A stretch of DNA of 64,000 nt from Pseudolabrys sp. (GTDB lineage: Bacteria > Pseudomonadota > Alphaproteobacteria > Rhizobiales > Xanthobacteraceae). How positions within the stretch are numbered: position 1 is the stretch's first letter; the number at the start of each line of letters is the position of its first letter. Shown piece by piece: positions 34,809 to 54,270 of the stretch. Location: assembly GCA_030684935.1 (NCBI GenBank), contig JAUXXH010000047.1, positions 1-64,000 of the forward strand, given 5' to 3'. The position numbers and the translations under genes were made by a program. The notes under the pieces are model-generated. The model worked only from the letters and a program-made list of their open reading frames with translations, searched no databases and had not been told where the DNA came from.

Positions 34809-35834
34809 TCAGGCGGCGATGTTCGCCATATCGGCGCCGCTGTCCACCACCAGCGCCAGCGCATCAGCCATGACGGCAGCGCCGGCGCCGGGCTTGACCG
34901 ACTCAGTCGCCAGATGGCGGCGGAAGGCGCGCGCGCCGGGCACGGCGCGGAACAGGCCGAGCATGTGCCGGGTGATCGAATTCAGCCGCACGCCCTTGGC
35001 CATTTCACGGTCGATATAGGGCATCATCGCGAGAGCCGCCTCCTTGGCCGAGGCGAAAGCGGCAGCCTCGCCGAACAGCAGCGGATCGACCCGCAACAGC
35101 CGCCACGGCTCCTGATAGGCGGCGCGGCCCATCATGACGCCGTCGACATGCGCGAGCTGGGCCTGCGCCTGCTCCAGCGTGGCGATGCCGCCATTGATGA
35201 CGACGGGCAGATCGGGATGCGCGGCCTTGAGCCGGTGCACCAGTCCGTAATCGAGCGGCGGCACGTCGCGGTTTTCACGTGGCGACAGGCCCTTCAGCCA
35301 GGCCTTGCGCGCGTGCACGATTAGCGCGTCGACGCCGGCCGCCCTCACCGCGGCCGTGAAAGTGAACAGCGAGTCCTGCGGGTCCTGGTCGTCGATGCCG
35401 ATGCGGCATTTGACGGTCACGGGAATATCGACCGCGGCCTTCATGGCGAAGACGCAATCTGCGACCAGCGCCGGCTCGGCCATCAGGCAGGCGCCGAAGC
35501 GGCCCTCCTGCACCCGGTCGGACGGGCAGCCGGCGTTCAAATTGATTTCGACATAGCCGAAGTCGGCGCCGATCCGCGCCGCCTGCGCCAGCGCCGCCGG
35601 ATCGCTGCCGCCAAGCTGCAGCGCCACCGGCTGCTCTAACGCATCGAAGCCGAGCAGCCGCGCGCGATCGCCGCGCAGCACCGCGCCGGTGGTCAGCATC
35701 TCGGTGTACAGCAACGCCCGGCGCGTCAGCAGCCGATGGAAAAACCGGCAATGCCGGTCGGTCCATTCCATCATCGGGGCGACAGAGAATCGGCGGGACC
35801 GACTATGGAGCTGTTTTGCCGATAAATCAGTCAT
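34809..35834 (-). CDS. dusA: tRNA-dihydrouridine(20/20a) synthase
   Basis: FMN enzyme reducing U20/U20a in tRNA D-loops. 341 residues: VAPMMEWTDRHCRFF near residue 18, NLNAGCPSDRVQEGRFGACLM with catalytic Cys near 105, VNGGIATLEQ and MMGRAAYQEPW. The first 15-18 residues lie at the junction with an integrase-bearing island. dusA is a known attachment target, and such elements replace the gene's 5' end and its promoter. The gene stays open and apparently functional. Confidence 0.93.
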   Translation of the reverse strand: MTDLSAKQLHSRSRRFSVAPMMEWTDRHCRFFHRLLTRRALLYTEMLTTGAVLRGDRARLLGFDALEQPVALQLGGSDPAALAQAARIGADFGYVEINLNAGCPSDRVQEGRFGACLMAEPALVADCVFAMKAAVDIPVTVKCRIGIDDQDPQDSLFTFTAAVRAAGVDALIVHARKAWLKGLSPRENRDVPPLDYGLVHRLKAAHPDLPVVINGGIATLEQAQAQLAHVDGVMMGRAAYQEPWRLLRVDPLLFGEAAAFASAKEAALAMMPYIDREMAKGVRLNSITRHMLGLFRAVPGARAFRRHLATESVKPGAGAAVMADALALVVDSGADMANIAA

Positions 35835-35859
35835 TTAGTGGTTCTTGCCGCTGTCTCAT

Positions 35860-35982
35860 GTCGTACCGTTTCCGGCCCGTTTTGACCCATTTTACCGCTT
35901 GTAGTACGACAATGTCGTACTCAAAAAGGAATGTCGTACCGATGGGTAGCATAATTGGACGAACTCGCAAAGACGGTACGAC
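35860..35982. repeat. Cluster of five GTCGTAC motifs at the dusA/integrase junction
   Basis: GTCGTAC occurs at 35860-35866(+), 35904-35910(-), 35914-35920(+), 35933-35939(+) and 35976-35982(-). The second and third copies form a palindrome with a 3-bp centre. A 7-mer is expected about once in 8 kb per strand, so five in 123 bp is notable. Likely recombinase arm-type, excisionase or repressor binding sites. Confidence 0.65.
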
Positions 35983-37012
35983 AGCGTACGCCGCGCAGAT
36001 CGTCATCAAAAAAGATGGCCGGATCGTGCACCGCGAAGCTGAGACTTTCGATCGCAAACAGGCGGCAAACGCCTGGATTGTCAAACGCGAGGCCGAACTG
36101 AAAAAGCCTGGCGGACTCGACCGGAAAGAGGACCCAACGTTGGCCGACGTGATTGATCGCTACATCGCCGAGTCAAACAATGCTGTTCTCGGCACCAAGG
36201 CCCAAGTGCTCAAGACAATCAAGAATAGCGATCTCGGCGACCTCAAATGCAGCGAGATTACCAGCCAGAAGCTCGTCGCCTTCGCGAAGGATCTATCGCG
36301 AAACGTCGAACCGCAAACCTGCGGCAACTACTTTTCGCATCTATCCAGCATATTCACTGTCGCGCGGCCGGCGTGGGGCTTTCCCCTTAGCCGCCAGGAA
36401 TTCGAGGACTCCGTCACTGTCCTCAAGAAGCTTGGCTTGATCCGAAAAGGCTCAGAACGCAATCGTCGGCCCACGCTCGAAGAACTCGACAAACTGATGG
36501 AGCATTTTGGGCGTATTCAAAGTAACCGCCCCTCCTCAATTCCGATGCAGAAGATCTTGCCCTTCGCCATCTTCTCCACCCGCCGCCAAGAGGAGATTAC
36601 GTTGTTGCGCTGGGATGATCAGGAGACCGATCGCATCCTCGTCCGCGACATGAAACATCCCGGCGATAAGAAGGGCAACAACGTCTACTGCGAACTAACG
36701 CCCGAGGCGATTACGTTCATTGATTCGATGCCGCGCGAAGACGAACGGATATTCCCCTATTCCGCCGATGCGATCAGCGCCGCCTTCACCAGAGCATGCA
36801 AGTTCCTGGGGATTTCGGATTTGCGCTTTCATGATCTACGTCACGAAGGCATTTCGCGGCTTTTTGAGATGGGCAGAACCATTCCGCAGGTCGCCGCTGT
36901 GTCCGGGCATCGAAGCTGGACGAGTTTGAAGAGGTACACGCATATTCGGCAGACCGGGGATAAATACGCCGGTTGGAAATGGCTGCAAATCGCTAGTGGC
37001 AGCCAGAAGTAA
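35942..37012 (+). CDS. Tyrosine recombinase / integrase of a dusA island
   Basis: About 356 residues from ATG 35942 (ATG 35912 would add ten). An N-terminal arm-binding part is followed by a core-binding domain (about 70-155) and the catalytic domain: Arg in STRRQEEITLLRW, Lys in KHPGDKKGN, HDLRHEG, SGHRSW and nucleophile Tyr in KRYTHIR near residue 334. All catalytic residues are present. It reads away from dusA, 107 bp from the dusA ATG, as expected for the integrase that put the island there. Base use is more AT-rich than in dusA. Confidence 0.92.
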   Translation: MGSIIGRTRKDGTTAYAAQIVIKKDGRIVHREAETFDRKQAANAWIVKREAELKKPGGLDRKEDPTLADVIDRYIAESNNAVLGTKAQVLKTIKNSDLGDLKCSEITSQKLVAFAKDLSRNVEPQTCGNYFSHLSSIFTVARPAWGFPLSRQEFEDSVTVLKKLGLIRKGSERNRRPTLEELDKLMEHFGRIQSNRPSSIPMQKILPFAIFSTRRQEEITLLRWDDQETDRILVRDMKHPGDKKGNNVYCELTPEAITFIDSMPREDERIFPYSADAISAAFTRACKFLGISDLRFHDLRHEGISRLFEMGRTIPQVAAVSGHRSWTSLKRYTHIRQTGDKYAGWKWLQIASGSQK

Positions 37013-37088: not shown

Positions 37089-37334
37089 TTACGATGAGGA
37101 AGCCTGACTCCGAACGAAGCGAACTCCCACTCCCTTCGTACCTTCGAATAGAAATTCGATGCCGAGGGCTATGAGCGTCTGTTCAATATCGCGCAACGTT
37201 CGGTCATGAGGGATCGTTGCACCACGCTCAAAGTCGGCAATCGTTCGTTTCCCGACTTTCGCTGCGGTGGCCAAGTCCTGTTGCGACAGATTCAGCCATG
37301 CTCTTGCTGCACGAAGTTGTTCTTTGTTAATCAT
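37089..37334 (-). CDS. XRE-family helix-turn-helix regulator
   Basis: 81 residues with one Cro/C1-type HTH (LRAARAWLNLSQQDLATAAKVG, then TIADFERGATIPHD) and a short C-terminal part (LIALGIEFLFEG) common in small XRE proteins of mobile elements. Divergent from the gene at 37427, so it may repress that cassette and itself from the 92-bp gap. Confidence 0.88.
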   Translation of the reverse strand: MINKEQLRAARAWLNLSQQDLATAAKVGKRTIADFERGATIPHDRTLRDIEQTLIALGIEFLFEGTKGVGVRFVRSQASSS

Positions 37335-37426
37335 AAAATGGTTCTTTTAGTGCAGTCACCCATCTTTTGTACCATACTCTGCGCCGAGGACAGGGAGTTA
37401 TCCCACGGCAAGGAGGCCGTGAATTC

Positions 37427-38314
37427 ATGGCGAAACATCTCGGTTTGACTGACGTATCTCATGCGGCGCTGATCCGGGCGGCGCGTGGCGCGATGGCCGG
37501 AGCCTTGGCCGGAGAGTTTCCGGAAGACCCGGTTATTGGCCCCGATCTGTCTCGTGCCCTTTCGGTTCTCGGCAGTACGGTGAAGCGGCATGGCGGGCTC
37601 ATCGAGCTTGGCATTGCTGGCGCGCTCATCGCGAGCGATCGCTACGTGGTGCTGACGAACGTCACTCTCCCCGTTACCAAGGCGGCGGCCCAGTTGCTGG
37701 ACGCGAAGAACTCCGATCAGGCCTTGGCCAAGATCAAGCTCTCGGCCGATTCGGAAGCTGAGGGCATCGTGAACGTCGATCTGGTCGTTGTCGACCCCGA
37801 TGCGAAGTGGGCCGGAGCCTACGAAATCAAACGGGGTAACGGCGCGACTGAGCACGGTAAGCGCCGCCCGATCATGCGGAAACTCGCGGCGGCTCGTCTG
37901 GTTCTCGCTTCTTACGTTCGCCAGGCCGGCTACGGGACTATGGAGAACGTCACCAGCGGTGTGATCGACTACTACGGCGCCTCGGGGTTCGATAAAAACC
38001 TCACCTTGTCGCGTGAGCATCTGGATGCCCACTTCGACGTACCGGTGGTGGCGACCGTGGAGACGATGACGGCTGCTCTGCACGAGGAACTGCTGATTGC
38101 GTTGCCGCAGCTCTTCACGCCCTTCCTTGCCAGCTTGCCGCACACCAATCGTGGCAACGCCAAGCTGGTTGGCAATCGCCGGCCTGCGCCGGCGGGCGAT
38201 CCGGATGCTGCCCTGCAGACGGTAATGGCTCGGCCTGCCGGGCCCGGGCAGCGCATCTGCCGGAGCGGCGCGCCTGAGCCGGCCTTCGGCGAAACGCCTC
38301 GGGCGGCCCACTAA
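37427..38314 (+). CDS. Unknown protein with PD-(D/E)XK-like motif
   Basis: 295 residues of no recognised family. Residues about 113-135 read VNVDLVVVDPDAKWAGAYEIKRG: a hydrophobic strand with Asp, then Glu-x-Lys 13-15 residues on, as in PD-(D/E)XK nucleases. This is suggestive, not proof. The C-terminal 45 residues are Pro/Ala/Arg-rich. AAGGAGG lies 10 nt before the ATG. First gene of a same-strand cassette ending with the exonuclease gene; a hairpin terminator follows it, so downstream genes may be partly separate. Confidence 0.7.
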   Translation: MAKHLGLTDVSHAALIRAARGAMAGALAGEFPEDPVIGPDLSRALSVLGSTVKRHGGLIELGIAGALIASDRYVVLTNVTLPVTKAAAQLLDAKNSDQALAKIKLSADSEAEGIVNVDLVVVDPDAKWAGAYEIKRGNGATEHGKRRPIMRKLAAARLVLASYVRQAGYGTMENVTSGVIDYYGASGFDKNLTLSREHLDAHFDVPVVATVETMTAALHEELLIALPQLFTPFLASLPHTNRGNAKLVGNRRPAPAGDPDAALQTVMARPAGPGQRICRSGAPEPAFGETPRAAH

Positions 38315-38318
38315 GACT

Positions 38319-38341
38319 GGACGGCGCGAACCGCGCCGTCC
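38319..38341 (+). terminator. Rho-independent terminator-like hairpin
   Basis: GGACGGCGCG-AAC-CGCGCCGTCC: a perfect 10-bp stem 4 bp after the preceding stop, then TCCTTTCCC. The weak T-run suggests partial termination. Confidence 0.65.
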
Positions 38342-38398
38342 TCCTTTCCCATTCATTGCCTGACGCGTGCTTGCCGCGCCACGGGCGGAGTCTGTGTC

Positions 38399-38926
38399 AT
38401 GCGTACCACCACTCTTGCTGACGCGCAGCGATCCGTTTCAAAGTCCGTGCGGCCTTCCAAGGGCGCTCGCCGTCGCAGCACGTCCGTGCGCGCCGTCGAG
38501 TTGTCCGCGGTGCCGCCGCTGCATTGGTGGCGCCATCTGCCGTCGGACGCGTACACTGTTGCGCATCTGGAAATCCTCCACAGGGCAATCTCAGGCATTA
38601 CCTTCCTGAACGAGCCTCGGTGGCCTGATGCAGTTCGCGGCGAACCGGCCGCGGCCATCGGAATCGCGTTGAGGACCGCGAGGCGGCATTCCACGTCCTG
38701 CCCTGTCGTTGATCTGGTGATGTCGGCGGTGCTGCTTACTGCTCTGGCCGGTGATCCGGCGGCACGCCTGATGCTGACCACAATGATTGATCGGCACAGA
38801 ACCCAAGGCCAGAAGAGGCGACTTTTGTCCTCATTGTCCAGCCGCACGCAGAGCATCACAGGCGCCCTCGCGATCGTCGAGACCAGCGGACCCCATGTCT
38901 CCCGCAGCAAGAACGCGGGAGCCTGA
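38399..38926 (+). CDS. Unknown 175-residue basic protein
   Basis: No family recognised. The first 35 residues are Arg/Ser/Lys-rich; the rest is helical (AYTVAHLEILHRAISGITFL, VVDLVMSAVLLTALAGDP). The stop is 1 nt before the metallophosphoesterase ATG, which strongly implies co-transcription. Could be a nucleic-acid-binding partner. Confidence 0.65.
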   Translation: MRTTTLADAQRSVSKSVRPSKGARRRSTSVRAVELSAVPPLHWWRHLPSDAYTVAHLEILHRAISGITFLNEPRWPDAVRGEPAAAIGIALRTARRHSTSCPVVDLVMSAVLLTALAGDPAARLMLTTMIDRHRTQGQKRRLLSSLSSRTQSITGALAIVETSGPHVSRSKNAGA

Positions 38927-38927
38927 C

Positions 38928-39698
38928 ATGCGGCTCCAGATTTTCTCCGATCTTCATGCCGACGTCGCCCGGCCGCGGCCGATCGCCATTGCCCCGGATG
39001 TCGATGCGGTGGTGGTCGCCGGCGACGTCTGCGAAGGCGCCGAAAGTGGCTTTGCCCATCTGCGCCTAATCGTCCCGATGCAGCTTCCGATCATCATGGT
39101 GATGGGCAACCATGAATATTACCGTCGTCATTTAGCCGGCGAACTCGAGTCCGCGCGCCAGACCGCACCGCTTTATGGCGTCCACCTGCTTGAGAATGAC
39201 GCGGTCACTCTGGGTAGCGTGAGGTTTGTCGGCTGCTCGTTGTGGACAGATTACGCCCTGTTCGGGATGCACAATCTTCCGCGGGCCATGGCCGTCGCCG
39301 CTGATGGTCTCAACGATCACAAGAGGATCAAGTGGTCCAAAGAGCCTTGGCGGCGCTTTCGGCCGCAAGAGGCGCTGCTGCTGCACAAGCGTTCTCGCGC
39401 CTTCATCGAAGCAACGCTGGCAAAGCCGTTCGACGGCGCCACCGTGGTGGTGACACATCACGCTCCTCATCCGGGCTCGATCCATTCTCGTTATGGATCC
39501 GACCTGCTGACTGCCGCCTACGTGTCGGACCTGACGTCGGTGATGGAAGCCGGTCGCCCTGATCTGTGGCTGCACGGCCATGTGCATGAAAGCTTCGACT
39601 ACCATGTCGGCACAACCCGCGTTGTCTGCAATCCTCATGGCTATGGCACGGAGAATGGGCGATTTGATCCCGCATTGATCGTGGAGATCGGGTCATGA
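38928..39698 (+). CDS. Calcineurin-like metallophosphoesterase
   Basis: 256 residues with the two-metal motifs in order: FSDLHAD (residues 6-12), VVAGDVCEG, MGNHEYYRR, VVTHHAPH and HGHVHESFDY. Hydrolyses phosphomono- or diesters; substrate unknown. Its stop overlaps the start of the AAA-M41 gene (ATGA), so the two are translationally coupled. Confidence 0.88.
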   Translation: MRLQIFSDLHADVARPRPIAIAPDVDAVVVAGDVCEGAESGFAHLRLIVPMQLPIIMVMGNHEYYRRHLAGELESARQTAPLYGVHLLENDAVTLGSVRFVGCSLWTDYALFGMHNLPRAMAVAADGLNDHKRIKWSKEPWRRFRPQEALLLHKRSRAFIEATLAKPFDGATVVVTHHAPHPGSIHSRYGSDLLTAAYVSDLTSVMEAGRPDLWLHGHVHESFDYHVGTTRVVCNPHGYGTENGRFDPALIVEIGS

Positions 39699-41893
39699 CG
39701 CGCGTGCAGATGCTTGCCTCCTCAGCGAGGCCGCTCGCCGAGGTCCTGGTCGACGCCCTGCGTAACAGTGGTAATCCTTTTCTCAGGCTGCGCACGCCGG
39801 CGTCCGACGATGTCTCCGACCAGCATCAATATGCGCTGCGCCTTGAGGATGCTGATGAAGCCAGCGACGGCAGTTCAGCCTGTATCTTGCGACCGGACGA
39901 GGTCGCCGTCGCGGTTCTGCTCGGCCAGGCGTTCGACCTCCGGCGCGATGTGCTGGCCAAGCTGCAGAACCGCGACACCGTGGCGATCATCGAAGCTCCG
40001 GGCGAGGACTACGTCGGCGTCGTGAAGCGGCTCTTCGAGAGGTACGTCATCGGCACTGACTCGCCGGTAATCGACGGTGACGGGCTGTCGCTCCAGGAAA
40101 ATGCCGTTGCAGAGCCGCGGACTGTCGCCATCTTCGCGCGGGGCGGCGAAGAGCGGTCCAGAAAGTCAGCAAAGACTGGTAATGACGAATTCGCCGCCGC
40201 CGTTCAACGGCGCTGCGCGATCGTCGGTATCGCCAGCGAGCCCGATCGCCTGCTTCCTAGGCTTCTGGTTCGTATAGCCGAGCACCGCATTGTGTTGGGC
40301 CCGCTAGACGGCCCGGCGATTGCCGCGGTGATCGAGGCTATTACCGGCCGCTATCCCGGCGCGGTCGATGACGACATCGCCAGAAGCGCCACGCTGGAAG
40401 CTCTCAACATCGCCGTGCGCGCCGACCTTGGCGCCGAGCACTCCCTTGAACGGCTCGGCCGCCTCGTGATCGGAAATGACCAAAAAGCCGAGCCGGGCCC
40501 TCTTCTGTCCGACATGCACGGGCTTGGCGCGGCCAAGCCTTGGGGCCTTGCCCTGATCCAGGACCTGCGCGATTACGCCGCCGGCAGGCTGCCCTGGAGC
40601 GAGGTCGACAAAGGCTGCCTCCTCACCGCCGCGCCTGGGATGGGCAAGACCTCCTTCGCGAGGGCCCTTGCCCGCGAGGCCAACGTCCATTTCGTCGCCA
40701 CCAGTTACTCACAATGGCAAGCTCACCGCGAGGGCCATCTGGGCCATGTGACTCAAGCCATCCGCAATGCATTTTCAGAGGCTCTGCTTCAGCGCCCTTC
40801 GATTCTGTTCATCGATGAAATCGATACGATCCCAGCGCGCGGCACCGGCAAGTGGAACGACGACTGGTGGACAGCAATCACCAACACATTGTTGGAATGC
40901 ATGGATGGCTTCGAGGATCGCGAAGGCGTCGTCGTCATCGCGGCCTGTAATGATCCGTCCCGGCTCGACCCGGCCTTGGTTCGGTCCGGGCGTCTTGATC
41001 GCCGTATCGAGATCCCGCTGCCCGACGTGCCTTCGCTGGCCGGCATTCTCCGCACCCACCTCGCCGCCGATCTGGCCGGCATTGATCTGCGCGATGCTGC
41101 ACTCGCCGCCCGTGGTGGCACTGGCGCCGATGTGGAGCGGTGTGTGCGTGAAGCCCGTGGCCGCGCCCGCCGTGCTGGTCGCCCGATCACGCTCCAGGAC
41201 CTCCTTGACGCCCTACGCAAGGGCGCGGCCGAATGGCCCGCCGATTTGCGCCGCCGTGTCGCCTACCATGAAGCCGGTCACGCCATTGCTTTCCTGGCCC
41301 TCGGCATTGCCGAACCCAAAGCGCTGTCGATCGGCGGCACCGGCGGCCTTGCCGAAAGCGACCTTGGTGAAACGCGCGCCATCACCCGCTCGCACATGGA
41401 GAAGTTCATCGTTGCGCTTCTCGCCGGGCGCGCCGCCGAACAGCTTGTATTCGGCGAAGTGACCGCCGGCGCCGGCGGCAGCACGACAAGCGATCTGGGC
41501 AAGGCCACGACGTTGGCAACACGCCTGGAAACGGATTACGGCCTGGGCAGCTTCGGGCTGGTCTGTATTCCAGGAGGGGCGAGCGATCGGGACCTCATCC
41601 TGCTCGACACCCTGCGTTCGGCCGTCGGCGCCACCATTGATCGCGCCTATGCCGCAGCGCTTGAACTACTCCGCCAGAACCAGCACGCCCTTGAAGCGCT
41701 TGCGACGGCCCTGTTCGGCGCCCGTTATCTCGACCGGGCCGATATCAAGGCAACCTTGGCTCATTCACCGCTGGCGACCCAAATCGTCACGCTGGCGCCG
41801 ACGGCTCCGCCCCCCGAACCCTTCGATGCACCGAGCGACGATGCGGCTATCGCCGGCGCCCCGCCCACTCCCGCCGCAACGAATCAGGCATAG
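39695..41893 (+). CDS. AAA+ ATPase fused to an FtsH-like M41 metalloprotease domain
   Basis: 732 residues. An N-terminal region of about 290 residues has no transmembrane helix and may hold a degenerate AAA-like fold. The AAA+ module has Walker A TAAPGMGKTSF (near residue 313), Walker B SILFIDEID, sensor ACNDPSRLD and arginine finger RSGRLDRRIE. The protease has zinc motif HEAGHAIAF near 527 and a later acidic ligand region. FtsH itself is membrane-bound, so this is a soluble variant. It probably unfolds and degrades selected proteins; the N-terminal part should choose them. Confidence 0.85.
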   Translation: MTRVQMLASSARPLAEVLVDALRNSGNPFLRLRTPASDDVSDQHQYALRLEDADEASDGSSACILRPDEVAVAVLLGQAFDLRRDVLAKLQNRDTVAIIEAPGEDYVGVVKRLFERYVIGTDSPVIDGDGLSLQENAVAEPRTVAIFARGGEERSRKSAKTGNDEFAAAVQRRCAIVGIASEPDRLLPRLLVRIAEHRIVLGPLDGPAIAAVIEAITGRYPGAVDDDIARSATLEALNIAVRADLGAEHSLERLGRLVIGNDQKAEPGPLLSDMHGLGAAKPWGLALIQDLRDYAAGRLPWSEVDKGCLLTAAPGMGKTSFARALAREANVHFVATSYSQWQAHREGHLGHVTQAIRNAFSEALLQRPSILFIDEIDTIPARGTGKWNDDWWTAITNTLLECMDGFEDREGVVVIAACNDPSRLDPALVRSGRLDRRIEIPLPDVPSLAGILRTHLAADLAGIDLRDAALAARGGTGADVERCVREARGRARRAGRPITLQDLLDALRKGAAEWPADLRRRVAYHEAGHAIAFLALGIAEPKALSIGGTGGLAESDLGETRAITRSHMEKFIVALLAGRAAEQLVFGEVTAGAGGSTTSDLGKATTLATRLETDYGLGSFGLVCIPGGASDRDLILLDTLRSAVGATIDRAYAAALELLRQNQHALEALATALFGARYLDRADIKATLAHSPLATQIVTLAPTAPPPEPFDAPSDDAAIAGAPPTPAATNQA

Positions 41894-41902
41894 AAAGCCG
41901 TC

Positions 41903-42832
41903 ATGAACATCCATGCTCAGTCCACGGTAGCTCAAGCGCCAGCCGCCAGCAGCGACGCCGAGAGTCTGGCGCGCCATCTTGAGGCAACGGGCAATTACAG
42001 GATCCTCCGCCGGCTCATTCCGAGAACGCCTACGCCCGCGCCTGCCGGCTATGCCGGCAAAGTCGGGATCATCCTTGATTTTGAAACGACGGGGCTCGAT
42101 CCGGCCAAGGACGAAATCATCGAAGTGGCCGTGGTCAAGTTCAGATATTCGGCAACCGACGAGATCACCGGTGTCAGCGGCGTCTTCCAATCCTACAACG
42201 AGCCGTCTATCCCGATCCCGACCGTGGTCACAGATCTGACTGGCATTACGAATGACATGGTCGCGGGCCACCGGGTCGACATGATCGCCCTGGAAACGTT
42301 CGTCGCCGACGCCAACATCGTCATCGCCCACAACGCCGGGTTTGACCGGAAGTTTGCCGAGCGGCTGTCACCAGTCTTCGAGCACAAGCACTGGGCCTGC
42401 ACCCAGACCGAGATCGACTGGCGCAAGCACGGCTTCGGCGGGGCCAAGCTCGGTTACCTCTTGGCCGACATTGGATATTTCCATAGCGCTCATCGCGCCA
42501 TCGACGATTGCCATGCGCTCGTCGAGGTTCTCAGCCATCCGCTGCCGACGACGGCTCGCTCGATTTTTGCCGAATTGATAGAGTGCGCGCGTCAAACGAC
42601 GACTCGTATCTGGGCGCAGAGCTCGCCGTTTGAATTGAAAGACGCGCTTAAGGCCCGCGGCTATCGTTGGAACGATGGCTCGGATGGCCGTCCAAAGTCA
42701 TGGTTCGTCGACGTCGGCGAAGATAAGCGTGCTACCGAAATCAGCTATCTGAAGAAGGAAATTTACCAGTGCGAGGTCGATATCGAATGCCGCGCCATGG
42801 CGGCGCTCAATCGGTTTTCGAACCGCGCTTAA
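41903..42832 (+). CDS. DEDDh 3'-5' exonuclease (DnaQ-like)
   Basis: 309 residues. Exo I LDFETTGLDP (Asp/Glu near residue 56), Exo II HNAGFDRKFAE and Exo III HRAIDDCHAL with the His five residues before Asp, defining DEDDh. After the nuclease (to about 220) a C-terminal domain carries LKARGYRWND and KSWFVDV, seen in stand-alone RNase T/DnaQ-like proteins of mobile elements. Starts 9 nt after the AAA-M41 stop. Confidence 0.88.
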   Translation: MNIHAQSTVAQAPAASSDAESLARHLEATGNYRILRRLIPRTPTPAPAGYAGKVGIILDFETTGLDPAKDEIIEVAVVKFRYSATDEITGVSGVFQSYNEPSIPIPTVVTDLTGITNDMVAGHRVDMIALETFVADANIVIAHNAGFDRKFAERLSPVFEHKHWACTQTEIDWRKHGFGGAKLGYLLADIGYFHSAHRAIDDCHALVEVLSHPLPTTARSIFAELIECARQTTTRIWAQSSPFELKDALKARGYRWNDGSDGRPKSWFVDVGEDKRATEISYLKKEIYQCEVDIECRAMAALNRFSNRA

Positions 42833-42921: not shown

Positions 42922-43737
42922 TCATTTCTGATAGTAGAGGCGGCGCAGAAAGGTACGGGCGGTCACAAGCACGACATGCAAACGGAACGTGCTGTGATCC
43001 TCGTCCGAAAGACCGGGATGCGATCCGTCTGTATGCAGCATCTTAAACAGGCCGTTGATGTAGTTCTTGCCGTCCGGTGTCCACTCGTTGCGGTCATCGG
43101 CCAGGAAGCCTATCTTGGCGAGTAGCTGGCGGCGGTTTTCAGAGGTGAGAGAATCCGTCTTGGCCGCTCCCTCGCAGTGACGGGCGATGTCATCGAACAG
43201 GCCTTCGAGAAATGTGCGGAACTGGGCGTTCGCGGCTGCCCAGTCGCCGCGCGCATGGGCCTCGATGCCTTGCTCAAGATGTCCAAGCGGTTGCCAAAAC
43301 CCAAAATGCTTCAGCAGTTGGTGTACCTCATTGTCTACTTCAGGCAGGCCGAGTTCCTGCGGCAAGGCTGCACGCAAGCGGGGATGCTGGTCATCATCGA
43401 AAGAGATCATATAGCCGTCACGCGCCAGACCGCGCAGGAAAGCAATCTCGGATTCGTGGGATGGGTCGGGACGCGCTAGCCGAACGGCCTCGCGGATCAC
43501 GGCCTCCGCAAGAGACAAGCTGCCTTCGAGCGTATCGACCTGATCCGCTGGGCGCTGCACAACAATACGCCCCAAGAGGTCGGCCTTCTTCGCCACGCTG
43601 ACGTTGGTGTCGGACGAAATATCGTTTTCAAGGCCTATCCGCAGAACCATATGGTTGAAGGCCGCCTGAGTTAGCCTGTCGTTGAGTAGCGCGACAGCCG
43701 CGACAATCGTTGGGCGCGTGAAAGGCACGGCGTTCAT
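42922..43737 (-). CDS. Protein with abortive-infection C-terminal-like domain
   Basis: 271 residues. The last third (HTDGSHPGLSDEDHSTFRLH, VTARTFLRRL) resembles the Abi-C domain, a HEPN-like helical fold found at the end of many abortive-infection proteins. The N-terminal part is acidic and helical and not recognised. It stops near the island midline and begins 6 nt after the AbiEii-like gene on the same strand, so all three may be one unit. Confidence 0.65.
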   Translation of the reverse strand: MNAVPFTRPTIVAAVALLNDRLTQAAFNHMVLRIGLENDISSDTNVSVAKKADLLGRIVVQRPADQVDTLEGSLSLAEAVIREAVRLARPDPSHESEIAFLRGLARDGYMISFDDDQHPRLRAALPQELGLPEVDNEVHQLLKHFGFWQPLGHLEQGIEAHARGDWAAANAQFRTFLEGLFDDIARHCEGAAKTDSLTSENRRQLLAKIGFLADDRNEWTPDGKNYINGLFKMLHTDGSHPGLSDEDHSTFRLHVVLVTARTFLRRLYYQK

Positions 43738-43743
43738 CGGCGA

Positions 43744-44670
43744 TCACCGCAACTTCTTGAGATGATCGGCGAGCGCGTTGAGCGAACCCATCGCGATCCC
43801 GAATTCCGGCTTGTCGCCATAGACCATGTCGCGCTGGAATTCAGCGTAGCCGTCAACGAACACCTTATCCTTCGGAATGCCCTCAATTGCCTTTAGCGTC
43901 TCGCCGAGCGGGTCTTTCTTCCAAGCCGGGAATTTATCGCCTCGCGTTTCGGCATCTGCTTTCATCACTTCATGCGACAGCGCTGCCGTTTGTGCGACAT
44001 CGTACTGGCCACGGGTCATGTGAAGATCATAGATATGGCGCACCAGCGTTGGATCGCGCTCCGGCCGCAAGCCTGCAAGCTCCGAACCCGCTCGCCATGT
44101 GAGGGCCACGAGCTTCTCGGCCGCCGTTTCAAGTACGGACGAACAAGCGATCTTCGGCAGTTCCGGCTCGCGTCCGTAGGCCTCCGCGACAAACGAGATT
44201 ACCGGCTTATCGATTGCATCGCGCCGCAGCGGCCACACGGACGTTTCGATCTGCACATCCGGACGCAGGCCCTTGCCCTGAGCGAGCGCTGTGTAGGGCA
44301 GCATGTATTTGGTGTAGTGCCCCTTGTACATTGAGACGCGATGCTTCTCGTTCTCCGGATCGAACTCGAAGCCCGCCTTGAGCAGCGCGTCTGTAATATC
44401 CGTCCGTAATTTTCGAAGCGCGCCGCGCGAAGGATTCGTCTTGCAGACGATTTTGAGATCGACATCTTCCGACATGCGCTTGGTAAGCTTGTAGGCGCGG
44501 CTCAAGGCGGTGCCGCCTCCGAAGATGAGGCGGAATTCGCCCGCATCGACTGCGGCAATCGCGGCCAGGGCTCTGACAACGTGCCAATCCTTCTCCACGA
44601 GTCCTGGGCTTGGCAGGCCAAAGTATTCCTGCACTTCCAAAAGCTCATCGAGTGTCGGCTTATCGTTCAA
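43744..44670 (-). CDS. abiEii: AbiEii-family nucleotidyltransferase toxin
   Basis: 308 residues of the DUF1814/AbiEii family, the toxin of type IV toxin-antitoxin pairs that block phage through abortive infection. The nucleotidyltransferase core is visible: FGGGTALSRAYKL near residue 49 and SEDVDLKI near 66, giving the D-x-D metal pair. The related MenT enzymes modify tRNA acceptor ends. The start overlaps the antitoxin end by 11 nt. Confidence 0.9.
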   Translation of the reverse strand: MNDKPTLDELLEVQEYFGLPSPGLVEKDWHVVRALAAIAAVDAGEFRLIFGGGTALSRAYKLTKRMSEDVDLKIVCKTNPSRGALRKLRTDITDALLKAGFEFDPENEKHRVSMYKGHYTKYMLPYTALAQGKGLRPDVQIETSVWPLRRDAIDKPVISFVAEAYGREPELPKIACSSVLETAAEKLVALTWRAGSELAGLRPERDPTLVRHIYDLHMTRGQYDVAQTAALSHEVMKADAETRGDKFPAWKKDPLGETLKAIEGIPKDKVFVDGYAEFQRDMVYGDKPEFGIAMGSLNALADHLKKLR

Positions 44671-45076
44671 GCACCAACTCCGAATTGTTGTACCGAAGGT
44701 GGCGCGAGAAGCGGCCCTTCACGCGCACCACGGGGTTCACCGGAACCTGCGTGGAACGGCCCTCGTTGTAGGCGCGTTCGGCTTTCGTTGGCTCCCATTC
44801 AACACCAAGCTTGTCGAGCGCTTGGCGGACGGCACCGGAGAATCCTTCGGGACTCTTGAGCACCGCCCGGCCGCTTAACCGCGAGGGGGAAGCGCGGCCA
44901 TAGACGCCATAGCCAAGCCGCACCAACCGGCCTTCCTCGACCAGCGCGCGGAGGGCACGCAGCACTTGATCCTCGCCGCCGAGCTTTTTGAACTCGCGTG
45001 TGAGGAACACGTCCTCGCCGTTCTTGCGGGCGATCCGCTCTTCGATTTTCTGACGCAACGTCTGCTTCTGAGGCAT
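44660..45076 (-). CDS. abiEi: AbiEi-family antitoxin / DUF6088 regulator
   Basis: 138 residues. Winged-helix-like N-terminus (FLTREFKKLGGEDQVLRALRALVEEGRLVRLGYGVY is a contiguous block at about residues 24-60) that should bind the operon promoter, then a basic C-terminal part (VVRVKGRFSRHLRYNN). AGGAGG lies 6 nt before ATG 45076. The spacer above is AT-rich and contains a repeated CAAAAACCCGACA (near 45090 and 45114), a possible operator. Confidence 0.85.
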   Translation of the reverse strand: MPQKQTLRQKIEERIARKNGEDVFLTREFKKLGGEDQVLRALRALVEEGRLVRLGYGVYGRASPSRLSGRAVLKSPEGFSGAVRQALDKLGVEWEPTKAERAYNEGRSTQVPVNPVVRVKGRFSRHLRYNNSELVLER

Positions 45077-45227
45077 GATGGGCCTCCTTACAAAAACCCG
45101 ACAATCACTATATGCAAAAACCCGACACCATTCAACCATTTCCGTAAATTTATCAATGGTTTGTTAGATTTCAAGGGGTTAGCTACCGGCCATGCCTGAC
45201 GGTCCCCTCGCCGAGGCCGCCTACGGA

Positions 45228-46589: not shown

Positions 46590-47126
46590 ATGAACGAATT
46601 GTCTGAATTGCTGGCAAGAGCCAGCGCCGGTATCGCGCCGGGTTTCTTTCGCCTCAGCATCCACGGCGGCGCGCCTGTCTACCGGGAGCGCGTCTACTGC
46701 TACGAACTCTATCACCAGATGCGTCTGCTCTGGCCGAACGACTGCGCCTTCACCCTGAATGGTGAAGTCGACAAAACCGCTCATCCGACCTTGACCGAGC
46801 TAGGCGCAGCCGGCTTTAAGCCGGACCTACTCGTGCACAGGCCGGGAGACATGGAAGGCAACCACGCGGTCATCGAAGTGAAATCAGTGCAGGCCGCGCG
46901 CCAGAACCACCAGAAAGATTTGAACACGCTCGCGTTGTTCAAGCGGGAAGTCCGCTACACGCGTGCGATCTACCTGATCTACGGCGAGGAAATCACCGGC
47001 GCGCTCATCGCGCGCATTGCCGCGCGATACGCCGCGATGGCACTGACCGTCCCCATCGAGCTGTGGCTGCACGTGTCTGCCGGCGAACCGGCCTTCCGCG
47101 AAACCCTACTTGAACCGGCAGCATAG
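46590..47126 (+). CDS. PD-(D/E)XK nuclease-like protein
   Basis: 178 residues. A Glu before the core (NGEVDKTAHP), then FKPDLLVHRPG (Asp near residue 79) and, 17 residues on, VIEVKSVQ: the pattern of PD-(D/E)XK nucleases. Similar proteins are sometimes labelled 'methionyl-tRNA formyltransferase-like', without sequence reason here. GGGAGG lies about 10 nt upstream. Probably co-expressed with the HEPN-like gene. Confidence 0.65.
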   Translation: MNELSELLARASAGIAPGFFRLSIHGGAPVYRERVYCYELYHQMRLLWPNDCAFTLNGEVDKTAHPTLTELGAAGFKPDLLVHRPGDMEGNHAVIEVKSVQAARQNHQKDLNTLALFKREVRYTRAIYLIYGEEITGALIARIAARYAAMALTVPIELWLHVSAGEPAFRETLLEPAA

Positions 47127-50350: not shown

Positions 50351-51733
50351 TTGTCTCGTTCGCTACGCTTCATCGACCTCTTCGCGGGACTTGGCGGTTT
50401 TCATCAGGCACTGGAAAAGCTCGGGCACCGATGCGTATTCGCGTCGGAAATCGATCCCGTACTCGCAGACCTCTACCAGAAGAATTTTGGCTTTAAGCCC
50501 CGCGGAGATATTCGCGAATTTCACGACAAGGTCCCGGCCCACGATATCTTATGCGCGGGATTCCCTTGCCAGCCCTTTTCGAAGGCCGGCGACCAACTCG
50601 GTTTCGATTGCCCACAATGGGGCGATCTTTTCGACTACGTCATTGCGATCTTGGAGCGCCACGAACCGCAATTTATTCTCATTGAGAACGTACCCAATCT
50701 GCTTCGGCACGACGAGGGCCGCACATGGAAGAATGTTTGCAGGCGGTTGCAGAAGGTCGGCTATTCGATTGAATTCAAGCTTTTGTCACCGCACATGTTC
50801 GGCGTGCCGCAAATTCGCGACCGGGTACTCGTTGTGGGATCGCGCAAGGGTCTGGCAGACTTCGCTTGGCCAAAGCCATCCCATGCTGCCGAAGAGATTT
50901 CGATTAAGTCGATTCTCGACATCAAGCCAAAGGAAGCCCGGAAACTAACAAAGGCCGCTGCTGGCTATATCGACACTTGGCAAGAATTGCTGGATGCGCT
51001 GCCACCGAATGAACAGTTACCATCATTCCCTATCTGGGCCATGGAGTTTGGAGCCACCTATCCGCTGCGCGAGGCGCCTCCTACACGCATGACCGCTGAC
51101 AGCTTTAAGTCTTACCGCGGGGCCTTCGGGCAACCGCTAAAAGGCAAGACCAAGGCGGAAATACTTGCAGCGCTTCCTCCTTACGCACGGTCCAGCAAGA
51201 CCAAGTTTCCTGAGTGGAAGATCGAATTCATCTTAGAAAACCGCGCCTTCTATAAGAAACACAAGAAGGCTATCGATGCGTGGCTCCCCAAGATCAGAAC
51301 CTTCGCAGCAAGCTTCCAGAAGCTGGAATGGAACTGGAAGTATGGCCACCATGATCTTTGGAAAACGGTTATCCAGTTCCGGGCATCTGGAATCAGGGCC
51401 AAGAAGCCCAACGCGGCGCCGTCTCTCGTCGCACTGACAACCAGCCAAGTGCCGGTCATCACATGGGAACGTCGCTACATGACCATGCGCGAGTGCGCGC
51501 GGCTGCAAAGCATGGGCGGCCTTAAACATCTCCCGACGGCTCAGGGGGCGGCATACAAAGCCCTTGGAAACGCCGTGAATGTTGACGTCATCACAGCCGT
51601 CGCCCGGACTCTCATTGGTGCGGTGAAAAAGCGTCCCTGCAAGTCCAAAGCGGTAAAGGCGAGGCGCGCAAAACAGCAAACCACGAGGCACCGGCCTCGC
51701 TCTCGTATTCCCGAGGATCGTATTTCCATCTGA
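50351..51733 (+). CDS. DNA (cytosine-5) methyltransferase
   Basis: 460 residues. Motif I FIDLFAGLGGFHQAL, motif IV GFPCQPFSKAGDQLG with catalytic Cys near residue 73, motif VI ILIENVPNLL, motif VIII QIRDRVLVVG, a target-recognition region of roughly 190-370, motif IX RECARLQSMG and motif X YKALGNAVNVDV. All elements are present, so it should be active; target site unknown. Start is TTG 50351 with GGAG about 8 nt upstream. Protective half of the following restriction-like cassette (11 nt to the next gene). Confidence 0.92.
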   Translation: MSRSLRFIDLFAGLGGFHQALEKLGHRCVFASEIDPVLADLYQKNFGFKPRGDIREFHDKVPAHDILCAGFPCQPFSKAGDQLGFDCPQWGDLFDYVIAILERHEPQFILIENVPNLLRHDEGRTWKNVCRRLQKVGYSIEFKLLSPHMFGVPQIRDRVLVVGSRKGLADFAWPKPSHAAEEISIKSILDIKPKEARKLTKAAAGYIDTWQELLDALPPNEQLPSFPIWAMEFGATYPLREAPPTRMTADSFKSYRGAFGQPLKGKTKAEILAALPPYARSSKTKFPEWKIEFILENRAFYKKHKKAIDAWLPKIRTFAASFQKLEWNWKYGHHDLWKTVIQFRASGIRAKKPNAAPSLVALTTSQVPVITWERRYMTMRECARLQSMGGLKHLPTAQGAAYKALGNAVNVDVITAVARTLIGAVKKRPCKSKAVKARRAKQQTTRHRPRSRIPEDRISI

Positions 51734-51744
51734 AAGTTAGTTTG

Positions 51745-53289
51745 ATGAAAAAGCTCTCCGCCAAGACCGTCAGCATTCGTCCGGGCGTGAGTGTTTTAAG
51801 CGTGCTTCGTCACCTGAATTACCGTTCGTGGTTCGCCCTCGCAGAATTTGTTGACAACGCCCTGCAAAGCTACTTGAGCCGGCAGGCCGAACTGAAACGG
51901 ATTCACGGCGCACGATTTAAGCTGGTTGTTCAGATCACCATTGATGCCAACAAGCCAGCCCGTATTTCCATTCGCGACAATGCCGGCGGCATCGCTCTGA
52001 AGGACTTTGGTCGGGCCTTTCGTCCTGCGGCCGTGCCCACTGATATCGGAGGGCTGTCGGAATTCGGCATGGGCATGAAAAGCGCCGCGTGCTGGTTCGC
52101 CTCGCGTTGGCATGTTAGGACGAAAGCACTGGGGGAAACGGTCGCACGGACGGTTCGATTTGATGTCGAAAAAATCGTCCATGATCAAATTGAGGAATTG
52201 GGCATTGAGGAGGAGCCCACCGACAACAACGATCACTACACCGAGGTCGTTCTGGAGGAGCTGCACCATGTGCCGGTCAGAAAAACGCTTGGCAAGATTA
52301 AAGAGCACCTGACTGACATCTACCGGACGTTTATCCGTGATGGCGTGCTTGACCTCAAGTTCGGAACAGAAAGCCTCGTATTTGAAGAGCCAACCCTACT
52401 GCGCGCGCCTTACATCAAGGAACCTGACGGTCCTGTGCGAACATGGCGCACGCCGATCAAATTTGATTTTGGCGACGGTCTCAAGGTAACCGGGTTCGCC
52501 GCGCTGCGCGATCCAGGCAACTATGCCCGTTCGGGCTTTGCTTTGTTCCGGCGGGGGCGGCTTATCCAGGGCAGCGGCGACGAGGGCTATCGTCCTGCGT
52601 TGATTTTCGCGCAACCCGGCAGCTACCGGTACCTCAGGCTCTTTGGCGAACTTCACCTCGAAGGGTTTGATGTCTCGCACACGAAGGATGGATTTCGCTG
52701 GGATGAAAATGAGCAACCCTTCATTGAGTTGCTTAAGGAGGAGTTGGACAAAAGCAAGCTTCCACTTCTTCGGCAAGCCGATGGCTATCGCGCCATCGCC
52801 GCTCGCGGCGAGCGCATGGCGGCGGCGCGTGAGGCCGTAGAGCACACGACCACCGCGCTGGAGCAGAATCTCCCTGACGTGATCGAGGAGATCTCGGCGA
52901 AGCCGCCCGTAGAGACGCGGGAGACGGCGCTTGAACGCCAGCCCACGTTGGCGAGCAAGGAGATCGAAATCGCATTTCGCGGGGAAACGTGGCGGATCAA
53001 GGTGGAACTGGGCGATGATGCCTCAGAGGGGCAATGGCTCGCCATCAGCGATACGACCGGAATCGCGAACTCGACACGCACCTTGGAAATTCGGCTGTCG
53101 CTCGCGCACCCGTTCATGATTTCTTTCGCGCAGACAAATCCGGAAGAGATCGAGGCGCTTTTGCGCGTCGCATCCGCCATCGCGCTCGCTGAAACCTTGG
53201 CCCGCCGCAGCGGCGTCAAGCTCGCGGGAACCATCCGAAGAAACGTCAATGACATCCTGCGCGAAGCCCTCTCGCAGCCATCAAGCTAG
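51745..53289 (+). CDS. GHKL ATPase of MutL/MORC type linked to restriction-modification
   Basis: 514 residues. N-box LAEFVDNALQSYL near residue 33, G1 IRDNAGGI near 76 and G2 SEFGMGMKSAACW near 105 define a GHKL ATPase; the rest resembles the MutL/MORC-like proteins encoded beside C5 methylases. In such systems it is thought to act as an ATP-driven clamp with a Z1 helicase-like protein and a nuclease. Full-looking length. Followed after 12 nt by the Z1 gene. Confidence 0.85.
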   Translation: MKKLSAKTVSIRPGVSVLSVLRHLNYRSWFALAEFVDNALQSYLSRQAELKRIHGARFKLVVQITIDANKPARISIRDNAGGIALKDFGRAFRPAAVPTDIGGLSEFGMGMKSAACWFASRWHVRTKALGETVARTVRFDVEKIVHDQIEELGIEEEPTDNNDHYTEVVLEELHHVPVRKTLGKIKEHLTDIYRTFIRDGVLDLKFGTESLVFEEPTLLRAPYIKEPDGPVRTWRTPIKFDFGDGLKVTGFAALRDPGNYARSGFALFRRGRLIQGSGDEGYRPALIFAQPGSYRYLRLFGELHLEGFDVSHTKDGFRWDENEQPFIELLKEELDKSKLPLLRQADGYRAIAARGERMAAAREAVEHTTTALEQNLPDVIEEISAKPPVETRETALERQPTLASKEIEIAFRGETWRIKVELGDDASEGQWLAISDTTGIANSTRTLEIRLSLAHPFMISFAQTNPEEIEALLRVASAIALAETLARRSGVKLAGTIRRNVNDILREALSQPSS

Positions 53290-53301
53290 CCGGACAAAGT
53301 A

Positions 53302-54270
53302 ATGACAAACGGAAACGCCGTAATAACGCCGCTCCGGGCAAACCGAGCACCGGGCCAGAGGTGGCAGCCCTACATCCGGGATGAAGCGGTTCGTTTGATG
53401 GAGTTCAAGCGGCTGCCCACGCCTCAGGCGGCCAGTGACATCCAGCAAGCCGCCGCGCGAATCCTCGGCTTTGGCCAAGATCCGGCACATGACGGCCAGC
53501 GCACGGGTCTTATTGTGGGCTACGTCCAGAGCGGCAAGACATTATCGTTTACGACTGTGATCGCGCTTGCGCGTGACAACGACATTCCGATCGTCATCGT
53601 CGTCGCCGGCACATCCGTTCCGCTGTTCGAGCAGACCGTCGGCCGGTTGCTTGAAGACTTGCAAGTCGATGCCTTCGATGGCCCGCCCCGATGGCTGCAT
53701 GTAAAGAATCCGGACCTTGGCAGCCGGCAGATCGTGGAGAACACGATCACAAACTGGCGCAACCCGAACGTGCCGCGCGCGGAGAAGGCCACGCTTCTGC
53801 TGACGGTGATGAAACATCATCAGCGTCTCGACCACCTGAACAACCTTCTGGCAGGCCTCGATCTCGCAGGCGTTCCTGCGGTGATCGTTGACGATGAGGC
53901 CGACCAAGCGAGTCTCAACACCCTCGTCAACCAAGGCCGTGAGAGCACGACTTACGGCCAACTATTGGCCCTCATCGATCGGCTGCCCAACCATACCTTC
54001 CTGCAATACACGGCCACGCCGCAGGCGCCCCTCCTGATCAATATTGCCGATGTGCTGTCGCCGGAGTTCGTCGACGTTCTGGAACCGGGCGAAGGCTACG
54101 TCGGCGGAGTGGAGTTTTTCGGAGGAAATCGCCAACTGACGCGCGTGATCCCACAAGATGAAATCCCCGCCGCCGATAATCCGCTGGCGGATGTTCCTTA
54201 CGGGCTTTTTGGCACCCTGGCGCCCTACTCAGGGCGGCCCGACGGGCTGGCTGGGATGGCAAGAATCTAA
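53302..54270 (+). CDS. Z1-domain helicase-like protein, C-terminally truncated
   Basis: 322 residues; typical Z1 proteins are about 850-950. The SF2-like N-terminus is clear: Walker A GLIVGYVQSGKTLSFT (near residue 70), DEAD-like box VIVDDEADQAS and motif III LQYTATPQAPLLI. Likeness holds through EIPAADNPLADVP, after which (about 54195) the sequence becomes Gly/Pro/Arg filler and stops. The Z1 domain end and any following endonuclease gene are missing, so restriction is probably lost while methylation may remain. Confidence 0.82.
   Translation: MTNGNAVITPLRANRAPGQRWQPYIRDEAVRLMEFKRLPTPQAASDIQQAAARILGFGQDPAHDGQRTGLIVGYVQSGKTLSFTTVIALARDNDIPIVIVVAGTSVPLFEQTVGRLLEDLQVDAFDGPPRWLHVKNPDLGSRQIVENTITNWRNPNVPRAEKATLLLTVMKHHQRLDHLNNLLAGLDLAGVPAVIVDDEADQASLNTLVNQGRESTTYGQLLALIDRLPNHTFLQYTATPQAPLLINIADVLSPEFVDVLEPGEGYVGGVEFFGGNRQLTRVIPQDEIPAADNPLADVPYGLFGTLAPYSGRPDGLAGMARI

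Follow-up and report, generated by a model that had tools for sequence, protein, structure and literature searches.

A recurrent gene module combining an AAA+/M41 protein with exchangeable nucleases: a candidate defence system

Organization of the locus

The window (the whole 64,000-nucleotide stretch of DNA that was analysed) contains five genes, g1 to g5, which lie on one strand and are preceded by a divergent gene for an XRE regulator. The features of the locus, in window coordinates, are the following.

35942-37012, plus strand: tyrosine integrase beside dusA; carrier element, outside the module
37089-37334, minus strand: XRE (HTH_3) regulator, divergent from the operon
37404-37421, plus strand: SD hairpin, a 6-bp inverted repeat with the g1 Shine-Dalgarno sequence AAGGAG in the loop
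37427-38314, plus strand: g1, slot A, predicted PD-(D/E)XK endonuclease (D118, E133, K135)
38319-38341, plus strand: g1-g2 hairpin, G+C-rich, 10-bp stem, 3-nt loop, read by eye
38399-38926, plus strand: g2, small WWR-motif protein
38928-39698, plus strand: g3, calcineurin-like metallophosphoesterase with metal-binding motifs present
39695-41893, plus strand: g4, AAA plus Peptidase_M41 protein, predicted to be soluble
41903-42832, plus strand: g5, slot B, DEDDh 3'-5' exonuclease (PRK09182/NF006615)

The ORF coordinates bear out the single-strand arrangement of five genes and the spacings described in an earlier note on this DNA: a gap of 1 nt between g2 and g3, an overlap of 4 nt between g3 and g4, and a gap of 9 nt between g4 and g5. 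The gap between g1 and g2 is 84 nt. The g1 frame opens at a TTG (37367), with the ATG at 37427, and the g3 frame opens at 38787. The same note had g1 set apart from the other genes by a hairpin; the hairpin is present, lacks a T-run and is missing from the list of the terminator scan, but g1 belongs to the unit. Likewise, the proposed cassette of five genes does recur, but the unit is wider, as it starts with the divergent XRE gene, often includes DUF6634 and has exchangeable slots. The dusA gene next door is confirmed by a match to the Dus family (2.5e-83), and the G+C content is lower from about 35 kb onward than in the preceding window sequence. In window 35600-35960 and the rest of the contig, as far as its end, the integrase beside dusA has no second attachment repeat that could be found.

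Predicted functions of the module proteins

Neither g1 nor g2 has a family match in Pfam (E up to 1) or in PADLOC, NCBIfam and PHROGs (E up to 0.1). The structural model of g1 has a mean pLDDT of 80.6, with 183 of the 295 residues at 90 or more and a well-modelled core. Its best fold matches are R2 retrotransposon proteins, the N-termini of hantavirus and reptarenavirus L proteins and AF1548, with RecB and McrBC lower; the matched structures are presumably PD-(D/E)XK-type nucleases, and the matches are weak (best E 5.8e-3, none reaching 0.001). Residues D118 and K135 do not vary across 15 homologues, and E133 is mostly E or D, with S in the Methylobacterium homologues. The PD-(D/E)XK guess of the earlier note thus obtains some structural support, at that level of the fold matches, and g1 is treated here as a predicted PD-(D/E)XK endonuclease.

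The assignment of g3 comes from a Pfam match to Metallophos (5.6e-14) and the catalytic motifs DLH, GD, GNHE, HH and GHVH. The g4 protein matches AAA (2.4e-31) and Peptidase_M41 (3.6e-19) and has the motifs HEAGH (at 525) and TTSDL, which places it in the AAA plus M41 protease superfamily. Along this protein, a domain read as degenerate AAA (about 65-262) is followed by one of the active AAA type (309-442) and by the M41 zinc protease domain (519-685). The highest 19-residue hydropathy mean is 1.55, with no stretch at the usual membrane-span level, which together with the two domain matches agrees with the original description of g4 as a soluble AAA/M41 protein. The 290-residue N-terminal part, which had been singled out for structure prediction, yielded a model with a pLDDT of 80.9, and its fold matches, as seen in the best 50 of 1175, are AAA+ proteins (best E 1.0e-3, weak). 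Since its first strand enters APGEDYVG, not a P-loop, this part is, judging from the fold match, most likely a degenerate AAA domain that precedes the active one. Finally, g5 matches RNase_T (9e-19), contains the motifs DFE, HNAGFD and HRAIDD, and belongs to NF006615/PRK09182 (403.5 bits, cut-off 207), with the DEDDh residues present.

Recurrence of the module and its exchangeable slots

The order XRE (divergent), g1, g2, g3, g4, g5 is also found in two loci from the same genus (L036 and L040), and a third locus of this genus (L041) has the genes from XRE through g4; in L044, from another genus of the same family, the order is XRE, g1, g2, g4, g3. The position between XRE and g2 (slot A) is occupied by g1, by an HNH gene together with that of the phage-type protein p190 (190 aa, phrog_4652; L037 and L039), or by a third protein type (L042, L043 and L045). 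For the third type, Pfam GIY-YIG is matched weakly by L043 (0.35) and gives no match in L042, L045 and L096, so that it is only tentatively GIY-YIG-like; the L043 protein also matches PADLOC PDC-S14 at 2.2e-26. The position after g4 (slot B) is taken by g5, by an ExoI-type protein that matches PADLOC RT-associated SbcB at 2.4e-109 (L041), by a PolB-type exonuclease (L032), or by DUF2130 (L043), which is not known to be a nuclease.

After de-duplication, which here also dropped the near-copies L048, L082, L122 and L123, and with slot genes counted anywhere in the locus, a single type per slot was found in 38 of 38 slot-A loci and in 30 of 30 slot-B loci; the 24 loci with both slots display 7 combinations. 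Random placement yields means of 9.7 (A) and 7.5 (B) mixed loci and never zero in 100,000 draws, figures that overstate the significance because the loci are related, their selection depended in part on these same genes, and some of them supplied seeds for the HMMs. The wider set of 86 hub loci was collected by likeness to g4, g1, g3 or p190 and is a non-random sample, in which the duplicates L104-L106, L108 and L109 and the viral L113-L116 are left out; no slot-A gene was detected in 51 of these 86.

The earlier note proposed a check of the co-occurrence of the five families, and rarity was not seen when it was run. Relatives of g1 lie at nine loci in genome contigs, five of which (L104-L106, L108 and L109) are query seeds under other names, the new ones being L107 and L110-L112. 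XRE is beside g1 in all nine, g2 is present in seven, and an AAA+ gene in six (five M41-type, one Lon-type); a slot-B gene is present in the seven loci that are not cut off within the module, and the remaining two, L104 and L107, end at the contig edge. In 296 genomes of the family, p190 occurs at 15 places. All 12 long copies are accompanied by HNH and an AAA+ gene; six of the 12 seeded the profile and six, L121-L126, are new, with L121-L123 being near-copies. Among the three partial copies, G139 adjoins XRE and HNH where its contig stops, and G169 and G288 have no partner. A single-protein query with p190 found 6 of 72,556 plasmid records, each with other module families: p190 lies beside XRE and HNH in L034 and L117-L120, with no AAA+ gene detected in L120, and in L056 it accompanies g2, g3, DUF6634 and g4, with no HNH detected. 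The g2 profile used is a curated one that replaced an early iterative version, which took in phosphoesterase ORFs.

In 16 control regions of 20 kb, taken from the same genomes at arbitrary coordinates, no module family was detected, bar one weak XRE match. The recurrence of gene order and content in relatives indicates that the arrangement is more than chance. The genes could, in principle, be chance neighbours within a defence island, and the order does differ among some loci; the co-occurrence counts and the control regions contradict this, which makes it a barely credible explanation.

The AAA+ component itself varies. In L110, L117, L118, L124 and L125, the g4 place is taken by an AAA+ protein that is 520-557 aa long and lacks M41, and L119 has a partial match to the Lon-type AAA+. 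This Lon-type protein matches Pfam AAA at 8.1e-7 (L117) and NCBIfam lon at 1.8e-16, in the ATPase part and below the cut-off. Two loci, L042 and L067, carry the M41-type g4 and the Lon-type AAA+ together, so the replacement is not strict. The variation points to the unfoldase as the common element, the fused protease being optional, and the pairing of nucleases with an AAA+ gene, to which the earlier note drew attention, is found among the relatives in several arrangements.

With a profile of the N-terminal part of g4, matches were obtained in 33 of 397 genomes from the order and in 5 of 385 from the class, the window's own genome included, a patchy distribution, as for mobile cargo. This patchiness speaks against an island-carried DNA repair or recombination operon made up of the exonuclease, an Mre11/SbcD-like phosphoesterase and the AAA+ protein, and the swapping of unrelated endonucleases would be unusual for repair; such an operon, which would fit the DnaQ-type exonucleases, the phosphoesterase and the phage homologues of several parts, is therefore quite improbable.

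Exchange of the 5' block and the XRE regulator

The XRE regulator and g2 follow the slot-A type, and the phosphoesterase hardly does. When slot-A labels are mapped onto quick trees built on partly different rows, the XRE tree requires 3 changes for 31 rows (shuffled mean 11.1) and the g2 tree 3 changes for 27 rows (10.3), with 0 of 200 shuffles as low in either case, compared with 7 changes for 21 rows on the g3 tree (8.9; 14 of 200 shuffles as low). The g4 tree requires at least 9 changes in nuclease linkage. At the DNA level, identity between the window and L037 or L039 is at most 55% per 200-nt bin until about 38.9 kb and rises to 62-94% between 39.0 and 41.8 kb; L038, whose contig starts inside the stretch, has at most 46% before the same step and 70-84% after it, and its identity drops again behind g4, where g5 was not found. 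For loci with the same slot A, identity to the window is at least 53% throughout (L036) or at least 52% from 37.2 kb (L040). The identity step at about 38.9 kb relative to other slot-A types indicates that exchange involves the 5' block as a whole. This pattern is consistent with g2 and XRE being functionally cognate to the endonuclease, with g2 as its putative restrainer or adaptor, but linkage on one exchanged block could suffice.

The best PADLOC match of the XRE protein is a restriction-modification (R-M) control protein (7.8e-14); C proteins are the controllers of R-M systems. XRE lies within 2.5 kb in 32 of 41 slot-A loci and is divergent in 31 of these 32; in the other 9, no XRE was found within this distance, and some of the contigs end there. 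The SD hairpin is present in six of the ten loci folded (the window, L036, L040, L041, L044 and L053) and absent from L037, L039, L107 and L110; in L040, an A-T pair is changed to G-C on both sides of the stem. Candidate operator palindromes between XRE and g1 were rejected, the conserved block beside XRE being the XRE start-codon region.

The resemblance of XRE to R-M control proteins, the fact that XRE and g2 follow slot A, and the hairpin before g1, which suggests translation control, would all suit an addiction or restriction-like module, with XRE as controller, g2 as immunity protein and g1 as toxic nuclease, that stabilises the island and contributes to defence only secondarily. There is, however, no methyltransferase within the module, and the exonuclease, the phosphoesterase and the AAA+ protease exceed the needs of an addiction pair, so this explanation is improbable.

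Genomic neighbourhood and mobile elements

The surroundings of the module are rich in defence genes. At E<=1e-10, 142 PADLOC families were matched in 110 neighbour proteins versus 18 in 110 control proteins, where the count is of families, not of proteins with a match, and overstates the number of defence genes because several PADLOC models match one protein. The samples were drawn by a random script from 192 neighbour genes of 26 module loci and from 233 control genes. Among the matches listed, those of the neighbours include AbiEii, pAgo, GajB, an oligonucleotide cyclase and Hhe, and those of the control genes are, in our judgement, mostly housekeeping look-alikes. Annotated neighbours include a CBASS operon (L062), a SIR2 protein (L118), a Kiwa-like protein (L060), and TIR and SIR2 proteins (L032).

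Two further gene groups lie in the window beyond g5. The genes for r8 (271 aa), AbiEii and AbiEi, at 42922-45139 (minus strand) and 46590-47126 (plus strand), recur behind the L040 module with 84-90% identity (f178, 60%), compared with 46-82% for the module genes there; by this measure, they appear to be a separately moving AbiE unit with an uncharacterised third gene. At 50351-54270 (plus strand), the genes for a C-5 cytosine methylase, a GHKL ATPase (HATPase_c_3, 5.8e-15) and a protein of 322 aa that matches ATPase/ResIII weakly form a single run, which likely represents a further restriction-like system.

A phage origin of the module was considered and rejected: the g4 N-terminal part matched four viral contigs by 33 to 39 residues only, and the module profiles found DUF6634 and XRE in one of these contigs and nothing in the other three. 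The p190 protein is frequent in phages (138 records). In the three phage stretches that were inspected, its homologues (L139 4001-4546, L140 5001-5558, L141 4001-4552) are small extra genes; they lie among tail genes in two of the three stretches, and the gene that follows each of them is small and lacks a strong Pfam match. No other module family was found by profiles in these stretches, save a weak XRE in L140, and an annotated HNH-type ('NHN') endonuclease lies about 2.8 kb upstream of p190 in L139. Phage p190 and the following small gene are possibly a phage-carried accessory cassette.

Many relatives are associated with Tn7-like elements. TnsA is near 29 of the 86 hub loci and TnsB within 6 kb of 24, and Tn7-linked and nuclease-linked members interleave on the g4 tree. 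A TnsA-like gene and DUF6634 precede g4 in six loci, namely L089, L090, L092, L097, L098 and L100 (the L089 TnsA-like match, 6.1e-8, is below the cut-off); the order in L089 (7904-12140), L090, L097 and L100 is TnsA-like, DUF6634, AAA/M41, TnsA, TnsB. The endonuclease slot of Tn7-like elements may be occupied by this additional TnsA-like endonuclease.

These associations, and the integrase that adjoins the window copy, lend weight to the alternative that the module is an accessory of mobile elements, in which the AAA+ protease would remodel a recombinase or transposase, or control transfer, and the nucleases would process the DNA of the element or of its rivals; ClpX remodels MuA complexes. 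However, no tns genes were found within 6 kb of the hub in the window copy or in L036-L045, and the nuclease linkage is gained and lost on the g4 tree. A tie of the module to the dusA integrase was rejected, as a dusA-adjoining module was seen again only in L053 (= L104) among loci L032-L141, and integrase matches occur within 6 kb at 4 of the 86 hub loci. The defence-rich neighbourhoods also count against an accessory role, although they are usual for cargo too. On balance, such a role is unlikely, while being the strongest competitor of the defence interpretation.

Proposed function

The interpretation that best accommodates these observations is that the module is a nuclease system with exchangeable effectors, controlled by an AAA+ protease, that defends against viruses or other invading DNA; its probability is put at roughly 55%. 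Membership of the module in this class is far more probable than any individual step of the mechanism outlined below. No description of such a system was found in PADLOC 2023, in NCBIfam 2026 or in the titles and abstract openings returned by literature searches, in line with the suggestion of the earlier note that it is undescribed.

In the proposed defence mechanism, XRE would act like an R-M controller and keep the operon low, and g2 would bind the slot-A endonuclease and either restrain or deliver it. Upon infection or another cue of foreign DNA, the AAA+ machine, with the degenerate AAA ring as a substrate platform, the active AAA ring as the motor and M41 as the protease, would unfold or degrade g2 or the complex and thus free the endonuclease. 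The freed endonuclease would cut DNA, whose ends would then be destroyed by the slot-B exonuclease together with the phosphoesterase, the latter enzyme acting through end clean-up or nucleotide hydrolysis. That g2 is the protease substrate is a doubtful element of this scheme. A more general proposition, that the module represents a new class of defence system with an AAA+ unfoldase or protease (M41 or Lon) as the universal activator of interchangeable endonucleases and exonucleases, and with g2, as a small adaptor conferring specificity, and XRE swapped together with the endonuclease, is somewhat better placed and is offered tentatively.

If the defence interpretation is correct, the module would add to the multi-gene defence systems one in which an ATP-driven protease operates interchangeable killing enzymes, and loss of g2, as the adaptor, would be expected to activate the nuclease. 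The same backbone is combined, within one genus, with three unrelated slot-A genes, which makes the question testable.

Comparison with known systems

Several known systems share parts with the module. IetAS consists of an AAA+ ATPase and a subtilisin-type protease in a defence setting, and the g4 AAA domain matches IetA at 1.9e-16; this match, however, is limited to the AAA part, M41 is fused in g4, the module includes nucleases, a phosphoesterase and XRE, and none of its five genes encodes a subtilisin (Pfam). With type II R-M systems, the module shares an XRE protein resembling C proteins beside a predicted PD-(D/E)XK-type or an HNH-type nuclease, but it has no methyltransferase and does have an AAA+ protease, an exonuclease and a phosphoesterase; the C-5 cytosine methylase gene at 50351-51733 (DNA_methylase, 2.8e-67) is 7.5 kb from the module.

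The g4 protein resembles FtsH in the order of AAA and M41, in HEAGH and in the third-ligand motif. Unlike FtsH, it scores 206.9 bits with TIGR01241/FtsH_fam against a cut-off of 600, which places it outside that equivalog, has no membrane segment by hydropathy, and carries the putative degenerate AAA domain in front; the genome contains a separate FtsH-like gene with 35% identity to g4. Tn7-like transposons are similar in that many g4 relatives adjoin tnsA/tnsB and differ in that the window hub has neither within 6 kb. Two PADLOC families, PDC-S14 and RT-associated SbcB, are matched by slot proteins (the L043 slot-A and the L041 slot-B protein, respectively) but belong to other systems in PADLOC; their relatives here fill slots beside g2-g3-g4.
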